IMG/VR virus record: IMGVR_UViG_3300026484_000236 | Span: 62,001-126,000 of that record | Reading direction: 5' to 3' (one strand) | DNA from: a virus | Length of the DNA: 64,000 bases | Part shown: in pieces, positions 5,219 to 62,759 of the stretch | How positions within the stretch are numbered: position 1 is the first letter of the stretch | Layout of the letters: each line of letters starts with the position of its first letter | Translations under genes and position numbers: made by a program | The notes under the pieces: generated by a model | Database searches by the model: none | What the model saw: the letters and a program-made list of their open reading frames with translations, nothing else | Told to the model about the DNA's origin: nothing

Positions 5219-5455
5219 CTAATTTTGGTATAAACCATCATTAGCAATCTCTATAAGAGCATAACCAAGATCTCTAAGATCTTGATGGTAAGCTCGTACT
5301 ACGTTTGGAGAATATTCGTTCTCCAAACGACTTTGAGTAAATGCGATAGCATTGGCTATCGCTATTACACTTAATCGCGAATATGGGTTTCGTCTTTGAG
5401 GACGATTCCCATTTTTATGATTTTTATGATTTTTAATATTTTGATTACTTGCCAT
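5219..5455 (-). CDS. Small basic protein of unknown function (78 aa)
   Basis: A lone minus-strand gene between plus-strand replication and lysis genes. The first 25 residues are rich in Asn, Lys, His and Arg (repeated NHKN); the rest is predicted mixed helical. No family recognised. It is preceded by a structured leader (5456-5565) and an ATAGATAT motif, which it shares with three minus-strand genes of the 17-22 kb block. This suggests it belongs to the same expression class although it lies 12 kb away. Start ATG with AAGGAG upstream. Confidence 0.7.
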   Translation of the reverse strand: MASNQNIKNHKNHKNGNRPQRRNPYSRLSVIAIANAIAFTQSRLENEYSPNVVRAYHQDLRDLGYALIEIANDGLYQN

Positions 5456-5565
5456 AATAACTCCTTCTTCTCCTTTATCGGAGGTATATCCAGCATTAGG
5501 ATTATGCTATAAAAATAAATCATTTTGCTAATGATTCAACTCTTTACTGATTATAAGATATCTAT
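5456..5565 (-). promoter_or_regulatory. Structured 5' leader, copy A, with promoter-like motif
   Basis: Read on the minus strand: ATATAGATATCTTATAA (5551-5567), hairpin H1 (5518-5536), H2 AGCAT-loop-ATGCT (5492-5508), H3 CTCC-GATAAA-GGAG (5470-5483), then AAGAAGGAG and ATG. The same order occurs in three other leaders at 20224, 20935 and 22428, with stem bases changing together. No gene is visible in the 5456-5652 gap. Confidence 0.6.
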
Positions 5566-5652
5566 ATAATAAATAACTTATTTTAAAGTATTTTAAAGGA
5601 GCAAATTTTAATTAAAAGAACTAATTCTTATATAAAATCAAAAGAGATTAAA

Positions 5653-6575: not shown

Positions 6576-8015
6576 ATGCCAATGAAATTATTAAATATGG
6601 AGAAGTTTGTAAACTCTCCGGAATCTGGTCCAAATCAAACCAGAGCTATAAAAACAGCTAAAACATTTACAAGAGATGCTAATAATGAATTAATTCCAAA
6701 TTCTGGAAGTTTTTACGATGCCAGTATATTCGGTTTTAGTTCAAGAGAAATTTTTGATCAATTTGCTTATATAAAATTAGAGGAACCAGTTCTTCACCCA
6801 TTCGTATATAAAAATATAGGTTCCCTCGGAGGATTATTTAACAAATGTGTTAATAAAGCAATTAAATGTAATATTGTCAATGGAGTATTAGAAGATGCTG
6901 ATGCTTCTAAAGGTTCTTCTGGAGGAAACGGTGTTAGTTTTCTTATTAATAATTGGGACAAGATTAACTTTAATAAATACAAAAATGATAAAAATAAAGA
7001 CTTTGTTGATTTATTACAACAAGATAAAAAATTAATTATTATAGATAAAATACCAGTAATTCCAATAGGATATAGAAATTATTCTAATAAACATGGAATG
7101 GTAGAAGAAGATGAAATTACGGATATTTATAAAAAAATTGTAAATATTAATGAAAGTAAGGATTGGATTAAAGATTTAGATAAAAATGAACAAAATGAAT
7201 TCGAACAAGTAATTCAAAGTATTTATAAAAATACTTCTAAAAAAGAATATGTTCAAAGATATATTCAAACACTTTATGAATATTTTTTAGATAAATTAAA
7301 TTCTAAAGATGGTTTCTTTAATGCCTCTCTGTTTGGTAAGCGTGTTGATAATGTAGCTAGATATGTTGCAAATGCTCAGCCAGATATTCCAGCTGATAGT
7401 GCCGCTTTTCCTTGGCAAGGTCTTTTAATAATGTTTGATGTTTTTGTAATAGCTTATTTAAATAAACCAGAATATGAGGAAGTTTCTAAAAAATTAGGAA
7501 TGAAAGAATTACTTATAGATGATATTGGAAAACAATTAGAATATATTTATAGAAATACAGAAGAGTACTTAAATACTTATCCACATCACGAAGAATTATG
7601 GATTCAGTTACTTACCGATATATTTAATGATAATTCAGAAATTAGGGTAATTACTAAAAGGGATCCTGGTTGGACTCCAGTATCTTGGTGGGCTTTTAAA
7701 CCATTAATACTAACTGGAGTACAGTACCAACTTATAGTACCTAGTTTAATTTATGCTCCAATCGGTGGAGATAGCTTCTCTAGTAATTATATTATTAAAG
7801 ATGATTTATCCGAGGCTGCTCAAAATAATATTATTTTGGAAAATGATGATTTTATAGTATCATTACCAAATGATACTACTGGTTCTAAAAATAAAGTGCA
7901 AAAAATATATAATAGTTTTTCATTAGTACAAAATTTAAAAATGAATTCTTCAAAAATAATTAACGAAGATGATTTTGAAGCGTTTATGGCAACTGCTGGA
8001 ATTAGGAGAATATAA
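6576..8015 (+). CDS. Phage RNA polymerase beta' subunit, N-terminal half
   Basis: 479 residues aligning by motif along the N-terminal half of bacterial beta'. In order: GSFYDASIFGF and FAYIKLEEPVLHP (residues 44-75; compare GLFC..IFGP and GHIEL..PV.HI), IPVIPIGYRN and ITDIYKKIVNIN (159-194; compare IPPDLRP and LNDLYR.VI.RN), FGKRVDNVARY (253-263; GKRVDYS.RS), KRDPGWTP and AFKPLILTG (361-381; NRAPTLHR and AFEPVLIEG). Where beta' has NADFDGD this protein has YAPIGGD (393-399), so two of the three Mg-binding Asp are missing. Its stop overlaps the next start (TAATG), so the two halves are translationally coupled. Phages of the phiKZ type also split beta'. Confidence 0.85.
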   Translation: MPMKLLNMEKFVNSPESGPNQTRAIKTAKTFTRDANNELIPNSGSFYDASIFGFSSREIFDQFAYIKLEEPVLHPFVYKNIGSLGGLFNKCVNKAIKCNIVNGVLEDADASKGSSGGNGVSFLINNWDKINFNKYKNDKNKDFVDLLQQDKKLIIIDKIPVIPIGYRNYSNKHGMVEEDEITDIYKKIVNINESKDWIKDLDKNEQNEFEQVIQSIYKNTSKKEYVQRYIQTLYEYFLDKLNSKDGFFNASLFGKRVDNVARYVANAQPDIPADSAAFPWQGLLIMFDVFVIAYLNKPEYEEVSKKLGMKELLIDDIGKQLEYIYRNTEEYLNTYPHHEELWIQLLTDIFNDNSEIRVITKRDPGWTPVSWWAFKPLILTGVQYQLIVPSLIYAPIGGDSFSSNYIIKDDLSEAAQNNIILENDDFIVSLPNDTTGSKNKVQKIYNSFSLVQNLKMNSSKIINEDDFEAFMATAGIRRI

Positions 8016-9178
8016 TGGCAATTAATATAGAAAATAGTACAAGATTATATAACTCTAAAATAATTATACCAAATGCTTTTAGACCACCAGAATGGTTTTT
8101 TAAAACTAAAGATATATTTAGAAAAGAAATACTTGAAAGTATTAAAAAGAATGGATTCTTAGATAAAGAATTGGTACGTAAAATGCTTAACGAAGTTCTC
8201 GAAAATAAAGTTAAAATTAAATTTCCTTTAAATAAAGATAATATTGGAAAATTGTATGCTGATATGTTTGATGTTTTTGAAGATGACGTTTTTATTTGGA
8301 AATATCAATTAGTTTATGAAATTGGATTCTTTTTAAGTACTTTAAAACCTAGTTCCTTTTCTCCAGAGAGTATGATACTTCCAGAAGAATTTAAAAAAGA
8401 AAAAGAACGTATTAAATTACAATATGAAAATTCTCCTAAAAAAGAAAAAGATATTATTAAGGCCAATAAAGAATTAGATAAACTTGCTGAAAAAGTTATG
8501 GAATATTTTCGTAAAAATAATATATCTGTCTCCGATTTAATCGATTCTGGTTCAAAAGGTTCGGTATCTGATATACGTAAACTTCTTTTAGGAGTTGGTT
8601 TAAGTATCAATGCTAAAGGAGAAATTAATGATGTTATTCTTAAAGCTCATTCGGAAGGATTAGATAAAACTCAATTCTTTAATTATAGTTCTCAAGGTAT
8701 TGTATCATTATATTCTAAATCAATGAATACTGCTAAACCTGGTTATTTAATTAGACAACTTTATACTATTATGGAAACACTGAACTTATCTAAATTAAAT
8801 GACTGTGGTACTAAAAAATATTTTGAATTTAAAATACCAAAAGGTAAAGATGGTAAAAAAATCTTATTTAATCTTAAAGGTAGGATTCTTGATAATGGTA
8901 ATACTATAGATCATGAGGACGAAAGTTATTTAGGTAAAAACGTTAAATTAAGAAGCCCTCTTTATTGTCAGGCTCGAGATGGTATTTGTAAAACTTGTTA
9001 TAATCCTAAAGCAGTAGAGGATTTAAAATTGTATCCAGGAAGTAAAGTTGGTCAAATGTCTGTCGCATCGTTAGCGGAAAGTTTAGTAAATATAACATTG
9101 AAAGCGAGTCATACGGGATTATCATTAGATAGCGAAGAAGTAGATTTAACAAAAGATATCGAAAGATATTCTAAGTAA
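8015..9178 (+). CDS. Phage RNA polymerase beta' subunit, central part with bridge helix
   Basis: 387 residues. Bridge helix SGSKGSVSDIRKLLLGVG near 177-194, TAKPGYLIRQL near 239-249 (compare TANSGYLTRRL), NDCGT near 262 and C..ARDGICKTCY near 318-329, matching the second zinc site of beta', and AESLVNITLKASHTGLS near 354-370, matching the start of the trigger loop (GEPGTQLTLRTFHTGG). The protein stops about 17 residues after this point, so the rest of beta' (second trigger helix, jaw, C-terminal clamp) is absent and must be another gene or lost. An endonuclease gene begins 29 bases downstream, exactly at this break. Confidence 0.85.
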   Translation: MAINIENSTRLYNSKIIIPNAFRPPEWFFKTKDIFRKEILESIKKNGFLDKELVRKMLNEVLENKVKIKFPLNKDNIGKLYADMFDVFEDDVFIWKYQLVYEIGFFLSTLKPSSFSPESMILPEEFKKEKERIKLQYENSPKKEKDIIKANKELDKLAEKVMEYFRKNNISVSDLIDSGSKGSVSDIRKLLLGVGLSINAKGEINDVILKAHSEGLDKTQFFNYSSQGIVSLYSKSMNTAKPGYLIRQLYTIMETLNLSKLNDCGTKKYFEFKIPKGKDGKKILFNLKGRILDNGNTIDHEDESYLGKNVKLRSPLYCQARDGICKTCYNPKAVEDLKLYPGSKVGQMSVASLAESLVNITLKASHTGLSLDSEEVDLTKDIERYSK

Positions 9179-9207: not shown

Positions 9208-10338
9208 ATGGCATTTTATAACGATCCAATAAAAGTTTTAGAAGAACTTAAAGAAAAATATCCAAAATACGATTATAGTAAATTTAAATATTCTAAAATG
9301 CGGGAAAAATGCATTATAATTTGTTCGGAACATGGTGAATTTTACCCAACTGTTATTAATTTTAAAAATGGTTCTGAGTGTCCGGCATGTTCTAGAAAAA
9401 TTTCTAGAACCGGTAATAAAGGTACCAAAAGTTTAACACAAGAAGAAATTTTAAAAAGATTTAAAGAAGTTCATGGAAATAAATACAATTATTCGGAAGT
9501 TAAATATATTAATAGAAGTACCAAAGTTAAAATAATTTGTAATTCCTGTAATAATAAATTTGATCAAATTCCTAGTTCTCATCTTAAAGGACATGGTTGC
9601 CCAAAATGCTCCAAGATAGAAGCATCTAAAAAAAGAATTGAAAATACAAATAATACCAAAAATATTACCATGAATTTTAAAAAAATTCATGGAGATAAAT
9701 ACGATTATTCAAAAGTTAATTATATAGATTCCAATACTAAAGTAGAAATTATATGTCCGGAACATGGAAGTTTCTTACAACTTCCAAATAGTCATAATTC
9801 CGGAAATGGTTGTCCAAAGTGTGGAATTTTAAAAAATATGAATACACCCGAAAAAAATATAAATAATTTTAAAAAAGTTCATGGTAATCAATACGATTAT
9901 TCACTTTTGAATAATACTACAAATTTAAATTCTTTAATTCCAATAATATGTTCAAAACATGGAGAATTTTTACAAACCAAATCTAACCACCTTCAAGGAC
10001 ATGGATGTCCAAAATGCTCTGAATCCAAAGGAGAAAGAAAAGTTAGAGAATTTCTAGAAGAGAATAATATTAATTATTCTCAAGAAGTTAAACTCTTTGA
10101 TAATTATAGATTTGATTTTTATTTAGAAGATTTAAATACTGTCATTGAGTATGATGGTAAACAACATTATGAACCGATTGGATATTTTGGTGGTTTAGAA
10201 GGGTTCTTGAAAACTCAAGAATGTGATAAAATTAAAACCGATTATTGTATTAAAAACGATATAAGAATTATTCGAATAGGATATTTTGAAGATGTTAGAG
10301 AAGTTTTAACACAAGTAAAACCATACCTAACAAACTAA
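9208..10338 (+). CDS. Putative mobile endonuclease with treble-clef repeats and Vsr-like nuclease domain
   Basis: 376 residues: four Cys/His repeats (about 20-72, 90-146, 155-208, 215-270) of the form HG.KYDYSKV...VEIICPEHG.F...H..G.GCPKC, then a nuclease domain with YRFDFYLEDLNTVIEYDGKQ, D.IKTDYC and IRIIRIGY. In the first two repeats some metal ligands differ. It lies between the truncated beta' gene and HU. Its last 300 bases are almost identical in DNA to the ends of the genes at 10876 and 12001, showing recent copying or gene conversion. Confidence 0.7.
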   Translation: MAFYNDPIKVLEELKEKYPKYDYSKFKYSKMREKCIIICSEHGEFYPTVINFKNGSECPACSRKISRTGNKGTKSLTQEEILKRFKEVHGNKYNYSEVKYINRSTKVKIICNSCNNKFDQIPSSHLKGHGCPKCSKIEASKKRIENTNNTKNITMNFKKIHGDKYDYSKVNYIDSNTKVEIICPEHGSFLQLPNSHNSGNGCPKCGILKNMNTPEKNINNFKKVHGNQYDYSLLNNTTNLNSLIPIICSKHGEFLQTKSNHLQGHGCPKCSESKGERKVREFLEENNINYSQEVKLFDNYRFDFYLEDLNTVIEYDGKQHYEPIGYFGGLEGFLKTQECDKIKTDYCIKNDIRIIRIGYFEDVREVLTQVKPYLTN

Positions 10339-10373
10339 AATAAATAAAACTATTAAAATAAGGAAAATTATAA

Positions 10374-10634
10374 ATGAAAAAAATCGAATTAGAAAAAGCT
10401 CTTGCAGCTAAATTAGAAATAAGTAATAAAGAAGCGGAAAGAATTCTAGAAGCTGTTGTTAATACTGTAGTAGCTGGTGTTAAAGAGACTGGTGAGGTTC
10501 CATTCGGAAAGATTGGTAAGTTCAAATACGTAGACGTTAAAGAACGTTCCGGTGAAATGAATGGTGTGAAATGGACTAAACCTGCTCACAAAACTATTAA
10601 ATTTAGTTTATCTAAATTTGGTAAAGAACTTTAA
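10374..10634 (+). CDS. HU/IHF-family DNA-binding protein
   Basis: 86 residues, near the usual length of about 90. Shows the N-terminal helix pair (KKIELEKALAAKLEIS, ILEAVVNTVV) and the first strands GEVPFGKIGKFKYVDV, then a short arm region and KTIKFSLSKFGKEL at the C-terminus (compare P.F.pgk.lk..v). The DNA-binding arm is shorter than in E. coli HU and the conserved arm Pro is not obvious. HU-like proteins bend and wrap DNA; in phages they may organise the genome or help replication. A strong terminator follows, so it is the last gene of its unit. Confidence 0.85.
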   Translation: MKKIELEKALAAKLEISNKEAERILEAVVNTVVAGVKETGEVPFGKIGKFKYVDVKERSGEMNGVKWTKPAHKTIKFSLSKFGKEL

Positions 10635-10660
10635 TAAATGAGGCTTCGGCCTCATTTATT
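10633..10660 (+). terminator. Strong UUCG hairpin terminator after HU gene
   Basis: A perfect 12-bp stem (AATAAATGAGGC / GCCTCATTTATT) closed by a TTCG tetraloop, overlapping the HU stop codon, followed by CCTGTCGTTA. Confidence 0.9.
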
Positions 10661-10699
10661 CCTGTCGTTATATAAGAATATAAATATATTTAAAACAGG

Positions 10700-10825
10700 T
10701 TAACTATTAATAGTTAACTATTAATAGTTATCTCCAAAATAGATATTATAGATAACTATACTGAATAACTATTAATAGTTAACTATTTGGTACACATACT
10801 ATAAATAGTTAACTATTAATAGTTA
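10700..10825. repeat. Cluster of TTAACTATTAATAGTTAA palindromes
   Basis: Copies at about 10700-10730, 10766-10786 and 10806-10825, spaced by 30-50 bases, filling most of the 240-base gap between HU and the next endonuclease gene. Each is a near-perfect palindrome of the AACTATTAATAGTT type. No gene seen here. Confidence 0.75.
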
Positions 10826-10846
10826 TATACATTATTTCTAGTTTAA

Positions 10847-10854
10847 ATAGATAT
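10847..10854 (+). promoter_or_regulatory. ATAGATAT motif before endonuclease gene
   Basis: ATAGATAT 22 bases before the ATG at 10876, downstream of the palindrome cluster. Confidence 0.35.
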
Positions 10855-10875
10855 TTTATCAATAAGGAAAATTTT

Positions 10876-11961
10876 ATGGGTAAAAAACTAACGCAAGAAG
10901 AAGTTATAAAAAGATTTAGGAAAGTTCATGGAGATAAATACGATTATTCTAAAATTCAATATTCTGGAATAAATGATAAGGTTATTATAATCTGTCCAGA
11001 GCATGGAGAATTTTTGCAAACTCCAAATAATCATTTAAGTGGTTATGGTTGTTCCAAATGTGCCGGAAATTTAAAATTAACTCAAGAAGAAGTTATTAAA
11101 AGATTTCGAGAACTTCATGAGGATAAATATGATTACAGTAAAGTCGATTATAAAAATAATATGACTAAGGTAGAAATTATTTGTCCAGAACATGGAAGTT
11201 TTTTTCAAACACCAAGTAATCATTTACGAGGTCAAAGTTGCAAACAATGTTTTTATAATAATTTAAAAACTCCAATTGAAAAATTATTAAAAGATTTTAA
11301 AAAAATTCATGGTAATAAATACAACTATTCCAAAGTTAATTATAAAAATAATAATAATAAAGTTATTATAATATGCCCAGAGCATGGAAAATTTTTACAA
11401 ACTCCAAGTTCCCATCTTAAAGGACATGGTTGTCCAAAATGCTCTATAAAACAAAATTTTACAAACACTAATGAAATTATTAAAAAATTTGTAAAAATTC
11501 ATGGAACTAATTATAATTATTCTAAAGTTAATTATATACATAGTATGGAAAAAATTGAAATTATTTGTCCAGAACATGAGAGTTTCTGGCAACTCCCATT
11601 TAATCATTATAGAGGTTCTATATGTCCAAAATGCGCTCAAGAAAATTCTGAATCTAAGGGCGAAAGAAAAGTTAGAGAATTTCTAGAAGAGAATAATATT
11701 AAATATTCTCAAGAAGTTAAACTCTTTGAGAATTATAGATTTGATTTTTATTTAAAAGATTTAAATACTGTCATTGAGTATGATGGTAAACAGCATTACG
11801 AACCAGTTGAATATTTTGGTGGTTTAGAAGGATTCTTAAAGACTCAAGAACGGGATAAAATTAAAACAGATTATTGTATTAAAAACGATATAAGAATTAT
11901 TCGTATAGGATATTTTGAAGACGTTGGGGAAGTTTTAAACGAGTTAACTATCAATAGTTAA
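10876..11961 (+). CDS. Putative mobile endonuclease with treble-clef repeats and Vsr-like nuclease domain
   Basis: 361 residues: four repeats at about 8-63, 68-125, 130-187 and 195-252, each with KYDYSKV or a close variant, IICPEHG and a Cys pair, then the nuclease domain (SKGERKVREFLEENNI, FDFYLKDLNTVIEYDGKQ). The last residues ELTINS are encoded by the palindrome GAGTTAACTATCAATAGTTAA, so coding sequence and repeat overlap. The gene at 12001 has the same ending and the same following spacer, indicating tandem duplication of gene plus spacer. Confidence 0.7.
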   Translation: MGKKLTQEEVIKRFRKVHGDKYDYSKIQYSGINDKVIIICPEHGEFLQTPNNHLSGYGCSKCAGNLKLTQEEVIKRFRELHEDKYDYSKVDYKNNMTKVEIICPEHGSFFQTPSNHLRGQSCKQCFYNNLKTPIEKLLKDFKKIHGNKYNYSKVNYKNNNNKVIIICPEHGKFLQTPSSHLKGHGCPKCSIKQNFTNTNEIIKKFVKIHGTNYNYSKVNYIHSMEKIEIICPEHESFWQLPFNHYRGSICPKCAQENSESKGERKVREFLEENNIKYSQEVKLFENYRFDFYLKDLNTVIEYDGKQHYEPVEYFGGLEGFLKTQERDKIKTDYCIKNDIRIIRIGYFEDVGEVLNELTINS

Positions 11962-12000
11962 CTATCTTTAGTTAACTAAAGATAGAAATAAAGGATTTTT
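11941..12000 (+). repeat. Spacer with palindrome, duplicated at 13077-13120
   Basis: GAGTTAACTATCAATAGTTAA, then TTAACTAAAGATAGAAATAA and AGGATTTT before the next ATG. The same string, lacking a 12-base insert, follows the gene at 12001. It carries the ribosome site of the next gene in both cases. Confidence 0.8.
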
Positions 12001-13095
12001 ATGGGTAAAAAATTAACACAAGAAGAAGTTATAAAAAGATTTAAAGAAGTTCATGGAGATAAATATGATTATAGTAAAGTAATTTACCATAAATCTAAAT
12101 CTAAAGTTATTATAATCTGTCCAGAACATGGAGAATTTTTACAAACACCAAATAATCATTTAAAATATAAATGTCCAAAATGTTCTATTTTAAAAAAACC
12201 AATAAAAAAACATATAAAAGATTTTAAAAAAGTTCATAATAATAAATACAACTATTCAAAAGTACACTATATAAATACTATGACTAAAATAGAGATTATT
12301 TGTCCAAAACATGGGAGTTTTTTTCAAACACCGATGTCTCATAAATCTGGAAATGGTTGTCCGGAATGTTCCAAAGAAAAACAATCAGGTAAATTAGAAA
12401 ATTTTTTAAAATCTTTACCAATAGAACATTTCAATAAATACGATTACCGTAAAGTTAAATATATAAATCGATTTGAAAAAATAGAAGTAATTTGTAAAAA
12501 TTGTAATAAATCGTTTTGGTGTATACCAAATAATCATTTAAAAAATAACCCTGATAATTCATTTTGTCCAAATTGCTATATTAATAAAAATACATATTCG
12601 CAGGATAAAATAATATACGATTTTAAAGAAATTCATAGAAATAAATACGATTATTCAAAAGTACACTATATAAATACTATGACTAAAGTAGAAATAATTT
12701 GTCTAGAACATGGAAGTTTTTTTCAAAAACCAAACGATCATAAAAATGGATCTGGTTGTCCAATATGTGCTCAAAAAAATTCTGAATCTAAAGGTGAAAG
12801 AAGAGTTAGAGAATTTCTAGAAGAGAATAATATTAAATATTCTCAAGAAGTTAAACTATTTGATAATTATAGATTTGATTTTTATATAAAAGATTTAAAT
12901 ACGGTTATAGAGTATGATGGTAAACAACATTTTGAACCAGTACCATATTTTGGTGGTTTAGAAGGATTCTTAAAAACTCAAGAACGTGATAAAATTAAAA
13001 CAGAATATTGTATTAAAAACGATATAAGAATTATTCGAATAGGATATTTTGAAGACATTGAAGAAGTTTTAAACGAGTTAACTATCAATAGTTAA
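12001..13095 (+). CDS. Putative mobile endonuclease with treble-clef repeats and Vsr-like nuclease domain
   Basis: 364 residues with four Cys/His repeats, the third divergent (CKNCNKSFWCIPNNH, wider spacing), and the C-terminal nuclease domain (SKGERRVREFLEENNI, FDFYIKDLNTVIEYDGKQ). Closest paralog of the gene just upstream; the two share the first 20 codons and the last 100 almost unchanged and differ in the middle repeats, where target recognition would be expected. It lies immediately before the terminase gene. Confidence 0.7.
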   Translation: MGKKLTQEEVIKRFKEVHGDKYDYSKVIYHKSKSKVIIICPEHGEFLQTPNNHLKYKCPKCSILKKPIKKHIKDFKKVHNNKYNYSKVHYINTMTKIEIICPKHGSFFQTPMSHKSGNGCPECSKEKQSGKLENFLKSLPIEHFNKYDYRKVKYINRFEKIEVICKNCNKSFWCIPNNHLKNNPDNSFCPNCYINKNTYSQDKIIYDFKEIHRNKYDYSKVHYINTMTKVEIICLEHGSFFQKPNDHKNGSGCPICAQKNSESKGERRVREFLEENNIKYSQEVKLFDNYRFDFYIKDLNTVIEYDGKQHFEPVPYFGGLEGFLKTQERDKIKTEYCIKNDIRIIRIGYFEDIEEVLNELTINS

Positions 13096-13120
13096 CTAAA
13101 GATAGAAATAAAGGATTTTA
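13077..13120 (+). repeat. Second copy of endonuclease-flanking spacer with palindrome
   Basis: GAGTTAACTATCAATAGTTAA, then CTAAAGATAGAAATAAAGGA, matching the spacer at 11941. Here it supplies the ribosome site of the terminase gene. Confidence 0.8.
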
Positions 13121-15142
13121 ATGAATTTAGATATAAAAAATATTATTATTAATGATAATAAAATTATTACAGAAGTTTCTCCAGAAGAAGCTCAACAAGT
13201 AAAAAATTTAACCGATCAAAATCTTATGGCTAAATATGCTAGTCCAAATGCTCCAACGATTATGAGACAACAAGAACAAGATAAACAATGGAGAATGAGA
13301 GAATATTTAAAATGTAAAATGAGTGCTCTTTATTTTATTAAAAACTATATTAGAGTTCAGGTACCAGGTGGAATTATTAAAGTCGGTGAATCTGCTGAGT
13401 GGTTAGAGACTCCAAAATATTCACAATTTATTAAACTTATCCAATACACTGATAATGTTAATATGATGGCGTCGAGGCAACATTATAAGACCACCACCGT
13501 TGGACAATATTTGTTATGGGTAATGCTTTTTCATCCAAAAGTTAAAATAGAGTTCTTAACTCTAAAACAAAAATCGGCTTTGGATTTCGTTGAACGTATG
13601 TACAGTATGTTATCAATGCTTCCAAAATGGTTAGAAGTTCCTAAAAGTAATAAAGGTGAAAAACAAACTTATCTAGAATTAGCAAATGGTTCTAGATTAA
13701 ACTCGAATTATGTTTCCGGAGCTATTAATCCGGATACCGTGGGACGTGGTATGACAGCTCCGGTAATCTACATAGATGAGGCTGCCTTTATCCCACATAT
13801 GGATGTGGTTTGGGGTTCATTGCAACCAGTTGTTTCAAAAGCGAGGGTACTTGCTAAACAAAATAATTTCCCTACGAATGTTATTATGACCACTACTCCA
13901 AATGGATCTAATGGTAACTTCTTTTATGACCTTTGGCAAAACTCTTGGGACTATTCTGAAATATGGGATGAGAAAACGAATAAACCAGTTCTTGATAATG
14001 AAAAGGTTCTTAATAGCTCTGATTTCCGAAATAACTTCGTTAAGTTAGAATTACATTGGTCAGAGACTGGCAAAGATGAAGAATGGTATAAAAAGCAACA
14101 AAAAGAACTTAACTTTAATATGAGAAGAGTTAACCAAGAGCTTAACCTTGTTTTCTTAGGTTCTAATAATGCCGTATTCCCAGATGAGGTACTGGAACAT
14201 TTTAAACCAACTCCACCTAAATTTCAATTAGATTTAGCATACGGTGAAAAAATGGATGTATTTGAAGATCTTGATCCAAATAAATTATATCTAATGGGTG
14301 TGGATAATGCTGCCAGTACTGCAGCTAAATCGGATTTTAGTACAATGGTTTTAACAGATGCCGAAACTGGTAGACAGGTCGCAGAGTACAGAGGCAAATT
14401 TAATGTTATTAAAAGATACGCAGCCGTTGTTAAATCGGCCATTTTACAATTACAACTGATTTGTGGATTAACTCCTAAAACACTAAGTGTAATTATAGAG
14501 CGAAATAGTTTTGGTATTGGTATCATTGAGGAAATATTATTTTCAGAAGCTCCAGATAAAATTAAATTTGAATTTGAAGAATTCTTGCATTTTACTAAGA
14601 CTAAAAGTACTGGTGATAGAGTTCCAGGTATTATGACTAATAAAACAAATCGTGAGCAAATGTTCAATCTTTTACTAAGTGCATTAAATACTGACCCAGC
14701 ATTGGCGCAGGGTAAATATTTACAAAATGAATTAAGAACTCTTGAGCAAAAAACTAACGGAAGATTTGAAGCAAGTTCTGGACAACATGATGATATTATT
14801 ATGGCTTTTAATTTCACATTATGGTTAAGACATGAAATGATCCAGGAAGGAGATTTACTTACGGAAGATACTCCGGAAGGATTAAAAATAACTCAAGGTG
14901 AGATTAATTCTTATCTGAATGTTACTTTTAGCACTATGGAACATGATTTTAAAAATGAAGCTAAACTTATTAATAAACAAAAAAGTTTTGAAAACATTCA
15001 AGAAGTAGGAAATCATTTTACGGATAAAGATGAGGAAAAACAAAGAAGAAGAGAAATTCTAAAAGAATTTGAAATTCCTGGTTTTACGTCTATAATGGAT
15101 GAAGACGACGAATACTATATGGAAGATTATAAAATATTTTAA
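13121..15142 (+). CDS. Terminase large subunit (DNA packaging ATPase-nuclease)
   Basis: 673 residues, T4 gp17-like. ATPase: Walker A variant SRQHYKTTT near 118 (T4 type SRQ.GKTT), Walker B VIYIDEAAFI near 215, coupling motif MTTTPNG near 256. RNase-H-like nuclease: LMGVDNA near 391 with first Asp, IIERNSFG near 465 with Glu, and QHDDIIMAF near 560 with the last acidic pair. It packages DNA into proheads by docking on the portal (34240-36486, unusually 19 kb away). No small terminase subunit was recognised beside it. ATG with AAGGA upstream. Confidence 0.95.
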   Translation: MNLDIKNIIINDNKIITEVSPEEAQQVKNLTDQNLMAKYASPNAPTIMRQQEQDKQWRMREYLKCKMSALYFIKNYIRVQVPGGIIKVGESAEWLETPKYSQFIKLIQYTDNVNMMASRQHYKTTTVGQYLLWVMLFHPKVKIEFLTLKQKSALDFVERMYSMLSMLPKWLEVPKSNKGEKQTYLELANGSRLNSNYVSGAINPDTVGRGMTAPVIYIDEAAFIPHMDVVWGSLQPVVSKARVLAKQNNFPTNVIMTTTPNGSNGNFFYDLWQNSWDYSEIWDEKTNKPVLDNEKVLNSSDFRNNFVKLELHWSETGKDEEWYKKQQKELNFNMRRVNQELNLVFLGSNNAVFPDEVLEHFKPTPPKFQLDLAYGEKMDVFEDLDPNKLYLMGVDNAASTAAKSDFSTMVLTDAETGRQVAEYRGKFNVIKRYAAVVKSAILQLQLICGLTPKTLSVIIERNSFGIGIIEEILFSEAPDKIKFEFEEFLHFTKTKSTGDRVPGIMTNKTNREQMFNLLLSALNTDPALAQGKYLQNELRTLEQKTNGRFEASSGQHDDIIMAFNFTLWLRHEMIQEGDLLTEDTPEGLKITQGEINSYLNVTFSTMEHDFKNEAKLINKQKSFENIQEVGNHFTDKDEEKQRRREILKEFEIPGFTSIMDEDDEYYMEDYKIF

Positions 15143-15144
15143 TA

Positions 15145-15170
15145 TCTATATGTATTATACATAGATATAT
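15145..15170. other. Imperfect palindrome containing ATAGATAT
   Basis: TATCTATATGTA-TTA-TACATAGATA, between the terminase and the next endonuclease gene; one bulged base. It includes ATAGATAT at 15161-15168, about 25 bases before the ATG at 15193. It could be a terminator, a promoter, or both. Confidence 0.4.
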
Positions 15171-15192
15171 TATTTACTAAAAAGGATTATAA

Positions 15193-16887
15193 ATGGCAAT
15201 AACACAAGAAGAATTTATAAATTTGGCAAAAGAAAAACATGGTAATAAATACGATTATTCAAAAGTTAACTATATTAATAAAAATACTAAGGTAGAAATT
15301 ATCTGTCCAGAACATGGGAGTTTTTTAGTAACTCCAAATAACCATTTAAAAATTTCATCTAGAACTAAAAAACCAATGGGTGGTTGTCAAATTTGTTCGA
15401 ATAAAAAATTATTAACACAAGAAGAAATTATAAACCATTTTAAAAAAGTTCATGGGGATAAATATAATTACAATAATGTTGGGTATGTTAATAAGAATAC
15501 TAAAGTAGAAATAATATGTCCAAAACATGGAAGTTTTTTTCAGACTCCAATTGATCACTCTTCAGGACATGGTTGTCCGAAATGCGCCCATTCAAAAAAA
15601 TTTCTAGGAAATTTAGAAATATTAAAAAGATTTTATAGTATTTATGGAAATAAATACCAATATGAATTACCAGAAAATAGCGATACATTAACCAAAATAA
15701 AAGTAATTTGTCCAGAACATGGAGAATTTAAAACAACAGTTGGAGAGCATTTTAAACATGGTTGTAAAAAATGCGCCGGTACTTTTTTAAAAACGACTGA
15801 AGAAGCAATTCAAGATTTTAAAAAGGTTCATTCTAATAAATATGATTATAGTAAAGTTAATTATACAAATGCTATGAAAAAAGTAGAAATAATATGTCCG
15901 GAACATGGAAGTTTTTTTCAAAGTCCAAATAATCATTTGAGTTCCGGTCATGGTTGTCCAAAATGCACTAGTACTCGTTCCAAAGCAGAAGAAGAAATTT
16001 ATAATTTTATAAAAGATGCTTTTCCAGATATAAAAATTATCCAAAATCATAAATTTGGTAGAATGGAATTAGATCTTTATTTCCCTGATTATAAATTTGC
16101 AATAGAATATAATGGGGTATATTGGCATTCATTAACTAATGTGAAAATGGCTACTTCTAAAAATCAAACGGACGCTTATTATAATAAGAAAAGACATTTG
16201 AAAAAGTTTGAAGCTTGTACTCAATTAGGAATTCATTTATTTCAAATTAATGAATTAGAATGGAAAGATCCAATTAAAAAAGATATTTGGTTAAGCAAAA
16301 TACTTTTAAAAATAGGAAAAATACCTAATAAAATACCAGGTAGAAAATGTATTATAAAAGAAGTTCCAAAAAAAGAATCTAGAGAATTTCAAGAACTTAA
16401 TCATTTACAAGGTAGTATTAATTCATTAAAACACTACGGATTATATTATCAGGATGAACTAGTTCAATTATTTACTTTGGGAGCATCTAGATATAATGGA
16501 CGATACGATTATGAAATTCATAGAATATGTACTAAAAAATATACTATAGTTCATGGAGGAGTTTCTAAATTATATAAATATGTTTTAAAGGAATTAAATA
16601 ATCCTAAAATTATAACCTATGCTAATAGACGTTGGAGTGCTTTAAATGATTCTAATCTATATAAACAATTAGGTCTAGTATATATTAATGAAAGTTCCCC
16701 AAACTTTAGCGTAATCCCAAAAGATTGTTCGAGAATGTATCCAAGAAATACTTTTCAAAAACATAAACTGGAAAAAATACCTGGTTTTGTTTACGATAAA
16801 AATTTAACAGCTCAGGAATGTATTTTAGCAAACGATTATATGATTCAGTGGGATTGTGGTAACGGAGTCTATGCTACAAAAATTTAA
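15193..16887 (+). CDS. Putative homing endonuclease, treble-clef repeats with EDxHD/Vsr-like domain and long C-terminal extension
   Basis: 564 residues. Four Cys/His repeats occupy about 1-265. A nuclease core follows: RSKAEEEIYNFI, then MELDLYFPDYKFAIEYNGVYWHS near 288-310, resembling the EDxHD family of phage homing endonucleases (I-Bth0305I type). The remaining 230 residues (PGRKCIIKEVP, LGASRYNG, IITYANRRWS, NFSVIPKD) match a C-terminal region common in such phage endonucleases. Different in kind from the other four, sharing only the N-terminal repeats, so domain shuffling is likely. It follows the terminase gene, a frequent target neighbourhood. Confidence 0.75.
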   Translation: MAITQEEFINLAKEKHGNKYDYSKVNYINKNTKVEIICPEHGSFLVTPNNHLKISSRTKKPMGGCQICSNKKLLTQEEIINHFKKVHGDKYNYNNVGYVNKNTKVEIICPKHGSFFQTPIDHSSGHGCPKCAHSKKFLGNLEILKRFYSIYGNKYQYELPENSDTLTKIKVICPEHGEFKTTVGEHFKHGCKKCAGTFLKTTEEAIQDFKKVHSNKYDYSKVNYTNAMKKVEIICPEHGSFFQSPNNHLSSGHGCPKCTSTRSKAEEEIYNFIKDAFPDIKIIQNHKFGRMELDLYFPDYKFAIEYNGVYWHSLTNVKMATSKNQTDAYYNKKRHLKKFEACTQLGIHLFQINELEWKDPIKKDIWLSKILLKIGKIPNKIPGRKCIIKEVPKKESREFQELNHLQGSINSLKHYGLYYQDELVQLFTLGASRYNGRYDYEIHRICTKKYTIVHGGVSKLYKYVLKELNNPKIITYANRRWSALNDSNLYKQLGLVYINESSPNFSVIPKDCSRMYPRNTFQKHKLEKIPGFVYDKNLTAQECILANDYMIQWDCGNGVYATKI

Positions 16888-20049: not shown

Positions 20050-20223
20050 TTAATAACCGAGAATACAATCACCTAAGTCAATTAAGTAATCGTAAGCATC
20101 TGCTAATTTTTTAGAATCAGTACCTAGAAATTCTATATTAACTGAATATCCAGCAACCAAAGATTGTTCAATAAATGCTTTACAAACCTTTATTTCCTCT
20201 TCACTATTAATTAAAATATCCAT
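20050..20223 (-). CDS. Small acidic protein of unknown function (57 aa)
   Basis: Begins MDILINSEEEIKVCKAFIEQ and ends LIDLGDCILGY. Read by hand on the minus strand. It is supported by an in-frame ATG directly behind leader copy B, whose last hairpin is followed by AAGAAAGG. No family recognised. Small alpha/beta character. The 3' side has a weak hairpin (GATG / CATC) before the lipoprotein gene. Confidence 0.6.
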   Translation of the reverse strand: MDILINSEEEIKVCKAFIEQSLVAGYSVNIEFLGTDSKKLADAYDYLIDLGDCILGY

Positions 20224-20320
20224 AATAACCTTTCTTCTCCATTATCGGAGGTAATAATTAACTCAGTATTAGAGTTATACTAAACGCTATTTCTAGCAAC
20301 TTGGGTTAAACTAAAACCCT
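20224..20320 (-). promoter_or_regulatory. Structured 5' leader, copy B
   Basis: Minus-strand order: GGGTT-loop-AACCC (20303-20319), H2 AGTAT-AACTCTA-ATACT (20265-20281), H3 CTCC-GATAAT-GGAG (20237-20250), AAGAAAGG, ATG. H2 and H3 match copy C; H2 differs from copies A and D by paired substitutions. Confidence 0.6.
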
Positions 20321-20398
20321 AATAAAAGCTAACCGTTCTTTTATCTGAGAGTCACATCATCTAGATGACTCGAACATTTAGGTTAGCTTTTATTAAGG
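20319..20398. other. Long nested hairpin, possible structured RNA
   Basis: A 14-bp perfect outer stem (AATAAAAGCTAACC at 20321-20334, complement at 20381-20394) encloses a second hairpin GAGTCA / TGACTC (20349-20371). No coding frame. It lies between the membrane-protein gene and leader B. Confidence 0.45.
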
Positions 20399-20403
20399 TT
20401 TAA

Positions 20404-20463
20404 AGGCCTCCCCGTCGGGAGGCTACGAGGTAGTAGATATTTATATAGCGGTTCCCACCGCTG
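20404..20463 (-). terminator. Two adjacent hairpins after membrane protein gene
   Basis: GCCTCCC / GGGAGGC (about 20406-20423) and AGCGG / CCGCT (about 20447-20462), just past the stop of the gene at 20467 on the minus strand. Unusually GC-rich for the window. The rest of the 20224-20466 gap holds the nested hairpin and leader B. Confidence 0.55.
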
Positions 20464-20466
20464 GGA

Positions 20467-20934
20467 TTATTTATAAGGACGGGTTACCCACGCTTCATAA
20501 ATAGCCCAAGATAAATATACCGGTGTAAACAGTAAGGAAAGTACTAACAATAAGTATTTAATTAATGGTCTTATTGTTGTACTACGGAACAGAGATGATA
20601 AAATCATTAACTGTAATACTACAGATAATGTTAAAGCAATTACTACTATTACTAGGTATGGATGCACTATTGCTACCCATATTAATATAATCGAAACCAA
20701 AGCTGCCCACACTCTGAGAACTTCTGGACGGTATGGCCAAAGTTCCAATCCCATTCTTACTAATGGAATTACTGTCATTGCTAGTAAAAACATACTAGCA
20801 TTTACTACATCCATAAAGAGATCATAATTGATCATTCCATACGAACGGAATGTAAAAGCAATTCCGAGAATAATTACAACACTAACTACCAACCAGAGAA
20901 CAAAGTTCTCTATAATATGGTTAATTCTTTTCAT
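20467..20934 (-). CDS. Multi-pass membrane protein of unknown function (155 aa)
   Basis: Four or five hydrophobic segments at about 10-28, 42-60, 75-92, 93-112 and 125-145 (for example LWLVVSVVIILGIAF, YLVIVVIALTLSVVLQLMIL). No family recognised. It is too large for a typical holin and lacks a charged C-terminal tail. It could alter the host inner membrane. Its leader (copy C) is the same structured type as before the genes at 5219, 20050 and 22182. GC content is visibly higher than its neighbours, a possible sign of recent acquisition. Confidence 0.7.
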   Translation of the reverse strand: MKRINHIIENFVLWLVVSVVIILGIAFTFRSYGMINYDLFMDVVNASMFLLAMTVIPLVRMGLELWPYRPEVLRVWAALVSIILIWVAIVHPYLVIVVIALTLSVVLQLMILSSLFRSTTIRPLIKYLLLVLSLLFTPVYLSWAIYEAWVTRPYK

Positions 20935-21125
20935 AATAACCTTTCTTCTCCATTATCGGAGGTATTAATTAACTCAGTATTAGAGTTATACTAAAAGCTA
21001 TTTCTAGCACCTTAGAAATAATATAGATATCCCTTACCAAATCCATAGAAAACTATAAATTTAATAAAAGATATTTAACAATTGCATGTTAATTATATCT
21101 CTCTGTTTATAAGATATCTATACTT
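20935..21125 (-). promoter_or_regulatory. Structured 5' leader, copy C, with promoter-like block
   Basis: Minus-strand order: TATAGATATCTTATAA (21107-21122), H1 TATTTCTA / TAGAAATA (20999-21020), H2 AGTAT / ATACT (20976-20992), H3 CTCC-GATAAT-GGAG (20948-20961), AAGAAAGG, ATG. The promoter-like 16-base block is identical in copies A and D. Confidence 0.6.
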
Positions 21126-21130
21126 AGAAT

Positions 21131-21155
21131 ACGTTATTTTAAAGTAAAATAACGT
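21131..21155 (-). terminator. Hairpin after gene at 21163
   Basis: Stem ACGTTATTTTA / TAAAATAACGT with a 3-base loop, 8 bases beyond the minus-strand stop. T tract weak. Confidence 0.5.
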
Positions 21156-21162
21156 AGTTATT

Positions 21163-21645
21163 TTACTTTATTTTAAAAATTTCTTTAGCTTCTTTTTTAG
21201 CTAATTTAATTCTATTTTTATAATCCTTATCGGATTCTTGTTTGTATTTTGGATTATCTTTTTTATAACTTCGTAAGTTATAATTAGAAGTTAATCTAAA
21301 AATATATCCATTATAAGGAAGAATTTTAGCTAAAGATTCTAAATGTTCTTTATACTCTAATTCTTTTTTATGTTTTTTATAATCCTGTATTTCGTTATTG
21401 ATAATTTCTCCAATAACCCATACTATAGCAAAACCTAAAGAAGTACTCGCACTTAATGCAATTAAACCCATTTTTTTAAAATGATCTAATTTACTTAAAT
21501 CATATAACGAAAACATAGTAATTACGCTTAAAAAGATAATTACATTTTTAGGAATTTCATGAACGTAAATATCCAAACCCAAAACACTAAGAAGAGAAAA
21601 TAAAACAAGTACTAACTTTTCTTCTTTACCAAAATGATTCTCCAT
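21163..21645 (-). CDS. Membrane protein of unknown function (160 aa)
   Basis: Three hydrophobic segments near residues 11-25 (LVLVLFSLLSVLGLDIYV), 31-45 (NVIIFLSVITMFSLY) and 58-78 (MGLIALSASTSLGFAIVWVIGEII), then a highly charged, Lys/Glu-rich C-terminal half predicted cytoplasmic. No family recognised. A membrane anchor with a helical cytosolic tail would fit an adaptor or exclusion protein. ATG behind AAAAGGATAAAA. Confidence 0.7.
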   Translation of the reverse strand: MENHFGKEEKLVLVLFSLLSVLGLDIYVHEIPKNVIIFLSVITMFSLYDLSKLDHFKKMGLIALSASTSLGFAIVWVIGEIINNEIQDYKKHKKELEYKEHLESLAKILPYNGYIFRLTSNYNLRSYKKDNPKYKQESDKDYKNRIKLAKKEAKEIFKIK

Positions 21646-21680
21646 TTTTTATCCTTTTTAAATTTAAATTTATAAATAAA

Positions 21681-21698
21681 GAAGCTCCGAAGAGCTTC
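21681..21698 (-). terminator. UUCG hairpin terminator after gene at 21703
   Basis: GAAGCTC / GAGCTTC closed by TTCG on the minus strand, then an A/T-rich run. Confidence 0.75.
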
Positions 21699-21702
21699 AG
21701 AA

Positions 21703-22056
21703 TTAAAGACTAATTGGTACTATAGACAACTCACTATAGTAACTGTAATCCGGAAAGTTTAATGGATCTAGGATCACCTTTAACTCTTCCAAAGTATAAT
21801 TAGACTTTAATACAAACTGATGAAATCTTCCAGAACCTTTATTTGGAGAAATTCCTTTAGGAAACTTCCCAAAACGATCCAAGTAAACATCATCATATAG
21901 TTTTGTGAAAGCAATAATCCTCCCACTAGCTTTAGCTAGTTCTTGGATTCTTGCTAAAGCTTGCATACAGTGACCAGCTCTTTTAGAGCTAATTACAACC
22001 GTTGTTAAATACAAAGATTTTTCTACTTCACTATCGTTTATCCATTTTACTTTCAT
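21703..22056 (-). CDS. Unknown protein (117 aa)
   Basis: Alternates strands and helices (LYLTTVVISSKRAGHCMQALARIQELAKAS, GRIIAFTKL), which resembles a small ferredoxin-like alpha/beta fold, with a C-terminal YSELSIVPISL. No catalytic motif or family recognised. It has its own terminator downstream and AAGGAG before the ATG. Confidence 0.65.
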   Translation of the reverse strand: MKVKWINDSEVEKSLYLTTVVISSKRAGHCMQALARIQELAKASGRIIAFTKLYDDVYLDRFGKFPKGISPNKGSGRFHQFVLKSNYTLEELKVILDPLNFPDYSYYSELSIVPISL

Positions 22057-22119
22057 TTTTATCTCCTTTTCGAAATAAGTCTATTAACTTATAATAAGCT
22101 CGTTCTCGAGCAACAAAAA

Positions 22120-22150
22120 CGCTTCGTTTAACGTCCAGCTAGACGAAGCA
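22120..22150 (-). terminator. Hairpin terminator after gene at 22182
   Basis: On the minus strand GCTTCGT...ACGAAGC with inner TCTAGCTGGA, followed by GTTTTTGTT. A second small hairpin (GCTCG / CGAGC) follows further on. Confidence 0.65.
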
Positions 22151-22181
22151 TTAAAGCTCTTCAGCTATTTGATTTATTTAC

Positions 22182-22427
22182 TCATATTCGACAACGAGTA
22201 TAATAAACGTCACAAACAACGTCGATTTTGTCAACAATATCATATGTTTCATCTTCAGTATACCCTTCTTCACAATTATAACACATACATGGAGATATTA
22301 TCACCTCTTCACCTGTTAAAAAATGCTTTCCTACTTCAAACTCAGTATCACATAAACAGCAAACATGAACTTCGTAATCACCTGTATCTTCATTCATTGC
22401 TACTATTTCAATATTTAAATCTTTCAT
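22182..22427 (-). CDS. Small zinc-ribbon-like protein (81 aa)
   Basis: Two Cys pairs: CCLC near 24-27 and CMCYNC near 47-52, spaced about 22 residues, consistent with one zinc site of the ribbon type. The rest is acidic, ending with VYYTRCRI. Such small phage proteins often bind a host protein or nucleic acid, but no specific family is recognised. It is the first gene of the minus-strand block and is preceded by leader copy D. Confidence 0.65.
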   Translation of the reverse strand: MKDLNIEIVAMNEDTGDYEVHVCCLCDTEFEVGKHFLTGEEVIISPCMCYNCEEGYTEDETYDIVDKIDVVCDVYYTRCRI

Positions 22428-22542
22428 TTTGAATCCTTCTTCCCTTGTTCAAAGGGGTATATCCAGCATTAGGATTATGCTATAAAAAATAAACCATCCA
22501 ACGGATGATTCAACTCCTTACTGTTTATAAGATATCTATATA
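22428..22542 (-). promoter_or_regulatory. Structured 5' leader, copy D, with promoter-like block
   Basis: Minus-strand order: TATAGATATCTTATAA (22525-22540), H1 AATCATCC-GTT-GGATGGTT (22492-22510), H2 AGCAT-AATCCTA-ATGCT (22465-22481), H3 CCCTT-TGAAC-AAGGG (22442-22456), AAGAAGGA, ATG. H3 keeps pairing although both arms differ from copies A-C. Confidence 0.6.
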
Positions 22543-22579
22543 AAAAATAACTTATTTTAAAGTATTTTATTACGAGTTT

Positions 22580-22823
22580 TTATTAATAGTTAACTATGGA
22601 TAGTGTCAACTAACATACTATAGCCAGTTATTTCAAAAAGACAAAAAATTTAAAACTTAAAATTTAAGAAATAGTTAAATTTTCAATCCTTTATAACACT
22701 GGAAAATAGGGGACTTGGTTTTTGATTTTAAGTTTATTTTAAAATCTGTTAGCTAGGATATTTTAAAAACGAACAACTATTGATAGTTAACTATCAATAC
22801 CACACACTATGAATAGTTAACTA
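22580..22823 (+). repeat. Long inverted repeat, copy 1
   Basis: About 245 bases matching, as reverse complement, 62760-63013 with only scattered differences. The core includes CAACTAAC.TACTATAGCCAG, AAATAGTTAAATTTTCAATC and GGGGACTTGGTTTTTGATTT. Palindromes of the TTAACTATTAATAGTTAA type stand at both edges. No gene is visible in the 457-base gap 22433-22889. It lies between divergent genes, as does copy 2. Confidence 0.9.
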
Positions 22824-22843
22824 AGTATCTACATAAAGATTAT

Positions 22844-44380: not shown

Positions 44381-44391
44381 AAGGAGAAAAT

Positions 44392-44970
44392 GTGTCTCGT
44401 ACTACCAAAACAACTAATATTAATTGTCGATTTAATACGACAGTTTGGTCATCTGGTACCAGAGTTTATACTACCGGAGGAGATGGAAATACCTCGTCTA
44501 ATAATCCTCCTAATTCTAATACTGATGTTGCTAGTACATGTCCTTCGTATAGAGATACTTGTAGTTCTAATTATGCAAGTGCTTTGGAAACAGTATTTGG
44601 ACATACTTCACCAAACAATGAATTAATAGATGATAAACATTTTAAAGATATGTATGATATTATTCATAGTATTGCTAGCGAAAGAAACATTTCTGATATC
44701 GAGGCAATATCATCTTTAGTTGCTCCGGGTAAATTAGTAGACCATGATCATTATAATACTATGAAATGGTGGGCAGATAATGTTGTTGCAACAACTGGTT
44801 CCGTAACATATAGATCCCGCGGTAATTTAATAGATAATGCAAGTATGACAACATTAAAAAATAAATTAAAAGCAGTTGCTAGATTATGTAATCAAAATGA
44901 CCATAACTCTTGTCCAAGTGTATGTAAATGTAATACAGTATGTACATGTAACTGTAATGCAAATTATTAA
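44392..44970 (+). CDS. Cys-rich protein, candidate substrate of radical SAM island (192 aa)
   Basis: GTG start at 44392 behind AAAGGAGAAAAT; the overlapping ATG frame at 44390 is a shadow. The protein has ten Cys: 12, 50, 57 and seven in the last 27 residues, ending CPSVCKCNTVCTCNCNANY. The N-terminal third is rich in Ser, Thr, Asn and Gly; the middle has a helical segment. There is no signal peptide. A Cys-dense C-terminal tail next to SPASM enzymes resembles RiPP precursors, though the leader-like part is large; alternatively it binds metal as a virion protein. Substrate role is inference. Confidence 0.7.
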   Translation: MSRTTKTTNINCRFNTTVWSSGTRVYTTGGDGNTSSNNPPNSNTDVASTCPSYRDTCSSNYASALETVFGHTSPNNELIDDKHFKDMYDIIHSIASERNISDIEAISSLVAPGKLVDHDHYNTMKWWADNVVATTGSVTYRSRGNLIDNASMTTLKNKLKAVARLCNQNDHNSCPSVCKCNTVCTCNCNANY

Positions 44971-44987
44971 AAATTAAAGGAAAATAA

Positions 44988-45602
44988 ATGCAAGTAGCTT
45001 TACTAAATAAAATAAATGGAAATTTTGTAATTTCTGAAATTATGCAATTCTCTGGTCAAGATTTAGAATTATTCGAAAATTATGCTATGATTGACGATGC
45101 AACAAAATATATGTACAATGCCTTGGTTAATGAATATGGAAAAGTATATATTAAAGAAGAAGATATTTTTAAAAAAAGTATTACTAAAGATAGTTTTATA
45201 TATCTTAAAGAAGATTTACCCGAAGGCACTACTTTAGAAGCAGAAGAACTAGAATTAAAAAAAGTAGAATTATATAATTATATGGATAATAATTTGGCCT
45301 TAAATATTCAAAAAATTAGCTTTTTAACATATATTCATTATATTACTTTATTTAATTATTTTGCAGCTAAAGGAATTTTTATTACTGAAGATAATAAAGA
45401 AGATAAATATATTGAAATTTTAGAATTAGACGACGAAAGCGCTATCGAAAAATTAGAATTGTATTTAAGTATACAGGATGAACTCAAACCATTTTTAGAA
45501 TTAAATAACGAATTAATACAAACTAAAGAAGATATTGATTATGCTGATGAAGAAGAATTAGAGGTATTAGCTGAAAAAATAATTCCTACTAAAATTCTAT
45601 AA
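44988..45602 (+). CDS. Unknown protein in radical SAM island (204 aa)
   Basis: Acidic, Leu/Glu-rich, predicted helical, with no Cys. VALLNKINGNFVISEIMQFS at the N-terminus and DIDYADEEELEVLAEKI at the C-terminus. It has no membrane segment. Downstream of the Cys-rich gene with AAAGGAAAAT upstream. Could be a chaperone, scaffold or second substrate; not recognised. Confidence 0.6.
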   Translation: MQVALLNKINGNFVISEIMQFSGQDLELFENYAMIDDATKYMYNALVNEYGKVYIKEEDIFKKSITKDSFIYLKEDLPEGTTLEAEELELKKVELYNYMDNNLALNIQKISFLTYIHYITLFNYFAAKGIFITEDNKEDKYIEILELDDESAIEKLELYLSIQDELKPFLELNNELIQTKEDIDYADEEELEVLAEKIIPTKIL

Positions 45603-45619
45603 AATTATAATGATTAACA

Positions 45620-47346: not shown

Positions 47347-47360
47347 TTAAAAGGGAAAAA

Positions 47361-49077: not shown

Positions 49078-49086
49078 AGGAAATAT

Positions 49087-55025: not shown

Positions 55026-55082
55026 ACCCAAAAATTAATATATTTTACTTTATCAAATTATAAATGAAAGGAAATTATTTGT

Positions 55083-56679: not shown

Positions 56680-56694
56680 ATAAAAGGATATTAT

Positions 56695-59771: not shown

Positions 59772-59783
59772 AATGGAGATAAT

Positions 59784-60386: not shown

Positions 60387-60387
60387 T

Positions 60388-62743: not shown

Positions 62744-62759
62744 ATTAAATATTACAAGA

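Follow-up and report, generated by a model that had tools for sequence, protein, structure and literature searches.

Four small genes on the minus strand of a phage genome are preceded by leaders that resemble each other, and the question that this locus raises is whether these leaders are a structured RNA and, if so, what such an RNA does directly in front of several unrelated genes. The window analysed here is a stretch of 64,000 nucleotides, bases 62001-126000 of the IMG/VR virus record G000 (IMGVR_UViG_3300026484_000236; record size 167,008 bases). Each leader lies directly 5' of an open reading frame (ORF), starting at 5455, 20223, 20934 or 22427 (Table 1). A first-pass annotation had described the four as sharing two hairpins, H2 and H3, and a ribosome site. 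The copies are real, with all quoted arms present: the pattern of the H2 region has 4 matches in the window where 0.17 are expected (0 shuffles reach 4) and that of the H3 region has 3 where 0.02 are expected, the fourth H3 being the CCCTT/AAGGG variant. Leaders c20224 and c20935 are near-identical (96% over 82 nt) and therefore not independent, and c20935 is a recent duplicate of c20224. Leaders c5456 and c22428 are 88% identical along 85 nt 5' of the pseudoknot described below, promoter and H1 hairpin included.

Table 1. Positions in the window of the leader elements and of the genes behind them.
Feature	Positions	Strand	Details
Pseudoknot c5456	5488..5508	-	S1 AGC(5508-5506)/GCU(5494-5492), S2 AUCC(5502-5499)/GGAU(5491-5488)
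H3 hairpin c5456	5470..5483	-	CTCC[GATAAA]GGAG; 14 nt before ATG
Shine-Dalgarno AAGGAG of ORF 5219-5455	5461..5466	-	inside tract from H3 to ATG
H1 hairpin c5456	5518..5536	-	AATCAT[TAGCAAA]ATGATT, then T-rich stretch
Promoter-like box c5456	5547..5594	-	CTTTAAAATAA...TATAGATATCTTATAATCAG
Gene after leader c5456	5219..5455	-	78 aa; L009 homologue also after such a leader
Pseudoknot c20224	20259..20281	-	S1 AGU/ACU, S2 UAACUC/GAGUUA
H3 hairpin c20224	20237..20250	-	CTCC[GATAAT]GGAG; 13 nt before ATG
H1 hairpin c20224	20286..20297	-	GCUA[GAAA]UAGC
Extra conserved stem, long-leader class	20321..20394	-	AATAAAAGCTAACC ... GGTTAGCTTTTATT; also in L008, L009, L012; reduced in L036
Gene after leader c20224	20050..20223	-	57 aa; L008 and L009 orthologues retain leader
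Pseudoknot c20935	20970..20992	-	recent duplicate of c20224
H3 hairpin c20935	20948..20961	-	13 nt before ATG
H1 hairpin c20935	20997..21008	-	GCUA[GAAA]UAGC
Promoter-like box c20935	21103..21150	-	
Gene after leader c20935	20467..20934	-	155 aa, hydrophobic (membrane protein by eye); without family match
Pseudoknot c22428	22461..22481	-	S1 AGC/GCU, S2 AUCC/GGAU
H3 hairpin c22428	22442..22456	-	CCCTT[TGAAC]AAGGG; 14 nt before ATG
H1 hairpin c22428	22492..22510	-	AATCATCC[GTT]GGATGGTT, then T-rich stretch
Promoter-like box c22428	22521..22568	-	
Gene after leader c22428	22182..22427	-	81 aa, Cys-rich

Covariation within the window alone is thin, and the strong evidence comes from homologues. 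Exact-pattern scans of IMG/VR retrieved relatives, whose whole records were searched with a covariance model (R1). There are 14 copies in seven IMG/VR records, namely four in G000, two in G001, three in G003 (L009), one each in G004 (L011), G005 (L012) and G007 (L036), and two in G008 (L039 and L071), a count that overstates the number of independent events because all copies come from one phage group. The first-pass annotation had proposed such a model search in related phages and had made its claim depend on further covarying copies; ten were found beyond the window's four. The model gave no convincing match in viral contigs outside this phage group and none in 80 cellular contigs chosen by a loose pattern, six further records with the promoter box only had sub-threshold matches at most, and a descriptor scan for the pseudoknot over all retrieved records gave no new convincing copy. 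An exact match to the H2 pattern in another phage, L007, is without H3 or a start codon at the right place and has a model E of 0.01, and was therefore treated as chance. Rfam 15 had 0 matches in the window at the gathering threshold; the weak matches of a permissive search (snR13, OxyS, Anti-Q and sar) were sub-threshold and unrelated and were discarded.

The record represents an uncultured lineage of large phages. Genes in the window encode a large terminase, two RNA polymerase beta'-like fragments, an actin-like partition protein and a helicase. Terminase and polymerase have only about 23-28% identity to isolate phages, with Bacillus phage vB_BpuM-BpSp ranked first, and neither a DNA search of the window against isolate phages nor a terminase search of species genomes gave a match. 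The RNA polymerase beta' homologue is split over two adjacent ORFs (6576-9178), and the same split occurs in the L009 relatives. About 20 ORFs of 200-310 aa stand in a row in the window (42533-60400 and 61213-62259); several of them have radical SAM matches and GGEPFxHP motifs, which is unusual in a phage. Multiple paralogous proteins built of repeated 'ICPEHGxFxxTPxxHxxGxGCPKC' units (1155-2042 and 9208-16887) have HNH/homing-endonuclease-like matches and are interspersed among RNA polymerase, terminase and other core genes. Long, near-identical (93-95%) inverted repeats lie about 40 kb apart at 22581-22843 and 62757-63012; they are rich in TAACTATTAATAGTTAACTAT palindromes, which are found again at 5057, 10674-10854, 11934, 13068 and 45949.

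The main helix of the leaders differs from the one first drawn. The first-pass annotation had pointed to paired changes between the H2 stems AGCAT/ATGCT and AGTAT/ATACT; one pair does change, from C-G to U-A, but the other four are unchanged, and as a conserved helix the stem (AGYAT/ATRCT) fails, with two covarying pairs and one pair broken in 4 of the 10 distinct sequences. It was rejected as the main helix in favour of two helices that overlap it, S1 and S2. S2, AAYYC[UAANRCU]GRRUU, joins the loop of the first-drawn hairpin (AAYYC) to the bases just past its stem (GRRUU); it has 4-7 bp, is paired in every copy and shows double changes at all five pairs. S1 is formed by AGY upstream of S2 and the complementary RCU in the S2 loop, and two of its three pairs covary. 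Over the ten distinct sequences 100% of the S1 and S2 cells are paired and seven of the eight pairs have double changes, where an extra base in L009c shifts the aligned column so that its third S1 pair is scored U-G (by eye C-G), and the outermost S2 pair of c5456 and c22428 falls in an alignment gap (by eye A-A, leaving S2 with 4 bp there). None of 500 shuffles scored as high; slid controls were paired at 16-40%, and a shift of the partner by one column gave 33-40%.

Two comparisons illustrate the compensation. Firstly, S2 is wholly rewritten in L009c (GGUAA/UUACC) while the loop UAAUGCU is kept. Secondly, L011 and the L036 copy are identical at 31 of the 33 pseudoknot-linker positions; the remaining two pair with each other in S1, where G-C has become C-G. 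Given the compensatory changes in the relatives, the fold itself is under selection, as the first-pass annotation had claimed for the RNA; with 14 copies and compensatory changes in every helix the case is much stronger than from the window alone. The bases that are mostly kept are UAAN in the loop, AU after AGY and AAUACC in the linker, with stems that vary freely.

The simplest reading of S1 and S2 is a small H-type pseudoknot, well supported by covariation; conventional folding cannot score a pseudoknot. With an S1 of 3 bp and no spacer between the 3' strands of S1 and S2, there is little steric room for a classical coaxial pseudoknot; because these strands adjoin, the geometry must be unusual. 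As a hairpin, S2 is better than the first-drawn stem by 3.7-5.6 kcal/mol in 12 of the 14 copies and about equal to it in c5456 and c22428; S2 and H3 are of only moderate stability. A bistable RNA that alternates between the first-drawn stem and S2 keeps a small residual probability, against which stands that the former is just 3 bp long in six copies and could hardly exist alone.

Downstream of the pseudoknot, H3 is paired in all copies, as first proposed from CTCC/GGAG and CCCTT/AAGGG. There are seven distinct arm pairs (CTCC/GGAG, CTCC/GGGG, CCCTT/AAGGG, CCCTC/GAGGG, CTCTC/GAGAG, CCTGC/GCGGG and ACCT/AGGT), all fully paired, and the sequence turns over completely between copies. In 13 of the 14 copies, 13-14 nt separate the 3' end of H3 from the start codon; the sole exception, L071, has no open reading frame behind the leader and looks like a remnant. 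Among 259 candidate ORFs of G000 and G001 with a Shine-Dalgarno sequence (SD), only three, all leader copies, have a comparable hairpin at that distance, in a survey from which a 60-codon cut and one omitted 20-kb segment excluded the 57-aa copies and L010. By its compensatory covariation and its fixed placement before start codons, the element is a structured cis-acting mRNA leader.

The position of the SD bears on how such a leader could work. It lies 3' of H3, in the purine-rich tract of 13-14 nt before the AUG, where the mean unpaired probability is 0.5-0.7 in most copies; the exposure of the SD exceeds that in shuffled leaders only slightly, and it is lower in L009b and L036. The 3' arm of H3 is not SD-like in L036 (GAGAG) and L039 (GCGGG), and sequestration is therefore not the conserved function of H3. 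The earlier suggestion that H3, being close to the start codon, could control translation holds for its position, but sequestration of the ribosome site was rejected, as the SD is outside H3 and free in the tract to the AUG.

A distance of 13-14 nt before the AUG corresponds to about the 5' edge of the 30S footprint. The fixed distance suggests action at initiation, the kept loop and linker bases beside freely varying stems suggest that the fold is recognised, and the occurrence before several unrelated genes suggests coordinated control. Therefore, we favour a translational operator or expression platform that acts in cis and is read by a trans-acting factor, a reading to which we give a probability of roughly 0.5. 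The factor that recognises the fold could be a phage protein, a host protein or the ribosome itself; bound just upstream of the 30S footprint, it would jointly determine how the mRNAs of a small set of probably early genes are translated, and perhaps how long they last. With its SD free, the leader should be ON in the ground state; the factor would then either cause repression by occlusion or assist by keeping the site open. Support for the fold is good; action at translation initiation, the factor, the direction of control and its timing are inferred.

Small pseudoknots close to the ribosome-binding site (RBS) are a common riboswitch architecture, of which the compact, RBS-proximal preQ1-type riboswitches are an example. 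The leader resembles these in having a compact pseudoknot near the RBS, and it has conserved unpaired bases, so that the pseudoknot might be a small metabolite-sensing aptamer and H3 its expression platform. This seems improbable, as the conserved bases are few for an aptamer, Rfam gave no match at curated or permissive thresholds, the genes have no common pathway and the SD is not sequestered by H3. In addition, the pairing partner of the loop lies 5' here rather than 3' as in preQ1-type riboswitches.

The full leader runs from a promoter through H1, the pseudoknot, a short AU-rich linker ending in ACC, H3 and the purine-rich SD tract to the start codon. A promoter-like box, CTTTAAAATAA...TATAGATATCTTATAATCAG, of which a TATAAT box is part, lies 50-233 nt upstream in eight copies, and the same box also precedes other genes. 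A long-leader class (c20224, L008, L009a, L012 and L036) has further conserved hairpins upstream of H1. The corresponding stretch of the window (20298-20463, minus strand) has the hairpins AGCGGT/ACCGCT and GCCTCCC/GGGAGGC and a 14-bp stem enclosing GAGTCA...TGACTC; it is nearly invariant in four phages and is possibly a separate RNA element. Two other functions of the leader have to be weighed against this architecture. In a mRNA-stabilising leader, hairpins near the 5' end and the pseudoknot would slow 5'-end-dependent decay with no specific ligand, which would fit a string of small hairpins and an H1 that in short-leader copies lies shortly downstream of the promoter's presumed start. We consider it rather unlikely, since conserved loop and linker bases and a fixed 13-14 nt spacing are needless for a pure stabiliser and some copies lie inside operons with no nearby promoter. 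U-rich sequence comes after H1 in c5456, c22428, L010, L009c and the alternative-leader copies, so H1 could also be a weak intrinsic terminator that is relieved by the downstream fold or by a factor. Such attenuation is improbable: no conserved antiterminator pairing with H1 was seen, and the c20224 class has almost no U tract after H1.

In G001, G004 and G009 another leader module stands downstream of the promoter box, immediately before the SD. The gene so preceded in G001 is the c22428 orthologue (L008; 54% identity over 52 aa), and its promoter and H1 are the same as in the window. Because the pseudoknot leader stands before unrelated genes and is replaced at this orthologue, leader and gene are exchangeable parts. 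That the leader is duplicated and swapped between genes would also suit a DNA element, a site of recombination or a protein-binding inverted repeat with stems that are palindromic DNA. The same orientation and fixed start-codon distance of the copies, the interleaved pairing around conserved, asymmetric loops, and compensation that preserves pairing and not sequence make this highly improbable. The operator or expression platform is thus favoured over stabiliser, riboswitch, attenuator and DNA element.

The second leader module has the pattern ...TTGATCG..AAGGTT.TCATA.CC...GAAAAGGAG..ATTATG and replaces the pseudoknot and H3 behind the same promoter at L290 (about 1590-1690 minus; G001, 81.7 kb), L296 (about 10560-10650 plus; G004) and L304 (about 1230-1290 plus; G009); two small hairpins whose loops complement each other may form in it. 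In several genomes the same promoter box also precedes a tiny ORF that has a strong SD and encodes a conserved micropeptide (MGTDITPGC, MGCDVSPGNC, MGAVDITGNC or MGAIDMT), at L281 (about 7480-7510 minus), L288 (about 2760-2790 minus), L303 (about 4390 minus) and L305 (about 880 minus). A terminator-like hairpin comes next in at least three, and the micropeptide phages also carry a radical-SAM gene cluster.

The genes behind the leader are several unrelated small ORFs, which include an N-rich protein, the 57-aa protein, hydrophobic proteins and a Cys-rich protein. Most had no match in a family search, and none matched a single-stranded DNA-binding protein (SSB) at the sensitivity of profile searches; no ribosomal protein was recognised. 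Their size, minus-strand clustering and promoter type indicate that they are probably early genes. The orthologue of the 81-aa Cys-rich protein in L008 (6532-6792) has a tandem EDI repeat at its end (IEDIEDIED...), encoded by a 9-nt repeat in frame, which the window copy lacks. It is possible, and we propose it tentatively, that the leaders form a phage-wide translational regulon, in which one pseudoknot-plus-hairpin module has been spread and exchanged among unrelated small genes, a single phage-encoded RNA-binding protein would switch the set on or off together, and the alternative leader modules would be a second regulatory class behind the same promoter.

The nearest known case, which works in a similar place, is the gene 32 leader pseudoknot of T4, T2 and RB69, an autogenous translational operator bound by gp32 (PMC3014915, PMC535899). 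Both are small pseudoknots that precede the ribosome site in the leader of a phage mRNA, with interleaved S1 and S2 in all copies here. The T4 pseudoknot is 67 nt upstream of the start, with an A+U-rich stretch free of structure that runs on over the ribosome site (PMC3014915), whereas here the conserved H3 intervenes, the spacing is fixed at 13-14 nt and the loop is paired with its 5' side. Moreover, T4 has one autoregulated gene, and here several unrelated genes follow, with no SSB-like gene recognised. We looked for the A+U-rich tract and an autoregulated SSB gene and found neither, and therefore do not file the leader as a gene 32-type member. The gene 43 (DNA polymerase) operator of T4 and RB69 is a hairpin in the leader, 5' of the ribosome site, whose loop has -UAAC- as conserved bases (PMC3014915); the loop here also begins with UAAN, a resemblance of four letters, but that operator serves a single autoregulated gene without a pseudoknot. 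The bacterial rpsO (S15) operator is a pseudoknot that controls translation initiation of a ribosomal protein gene autogenously (cited in PMC3014915). Such control of initiation would be the counterpart of the action proposed here, where the pseudoknot precedes several genes and no ribosomal protein gene among them was recognised. We conclude that the leader is a new RNA family of the general kind of structured mRNA leaders, unusual as a shared, swappable pseudoknot module.

Phage pseudoknot leaders are rare in the literature, and a 2010 review of T4 noted that gene 32 may be the only viral pseudoknot used in translational autoregulation (PMC3014915). The leader lends itself to testing: there are 14 natural variants and clear compensatory mutants, and the orthologue that carries another leader is a natural control. 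A pseudoknot module that several unrelated genes of the same phage have in common, and that moves from gene to gene, would indicate that a phage gene set is under coordinated post-transcriptional control.
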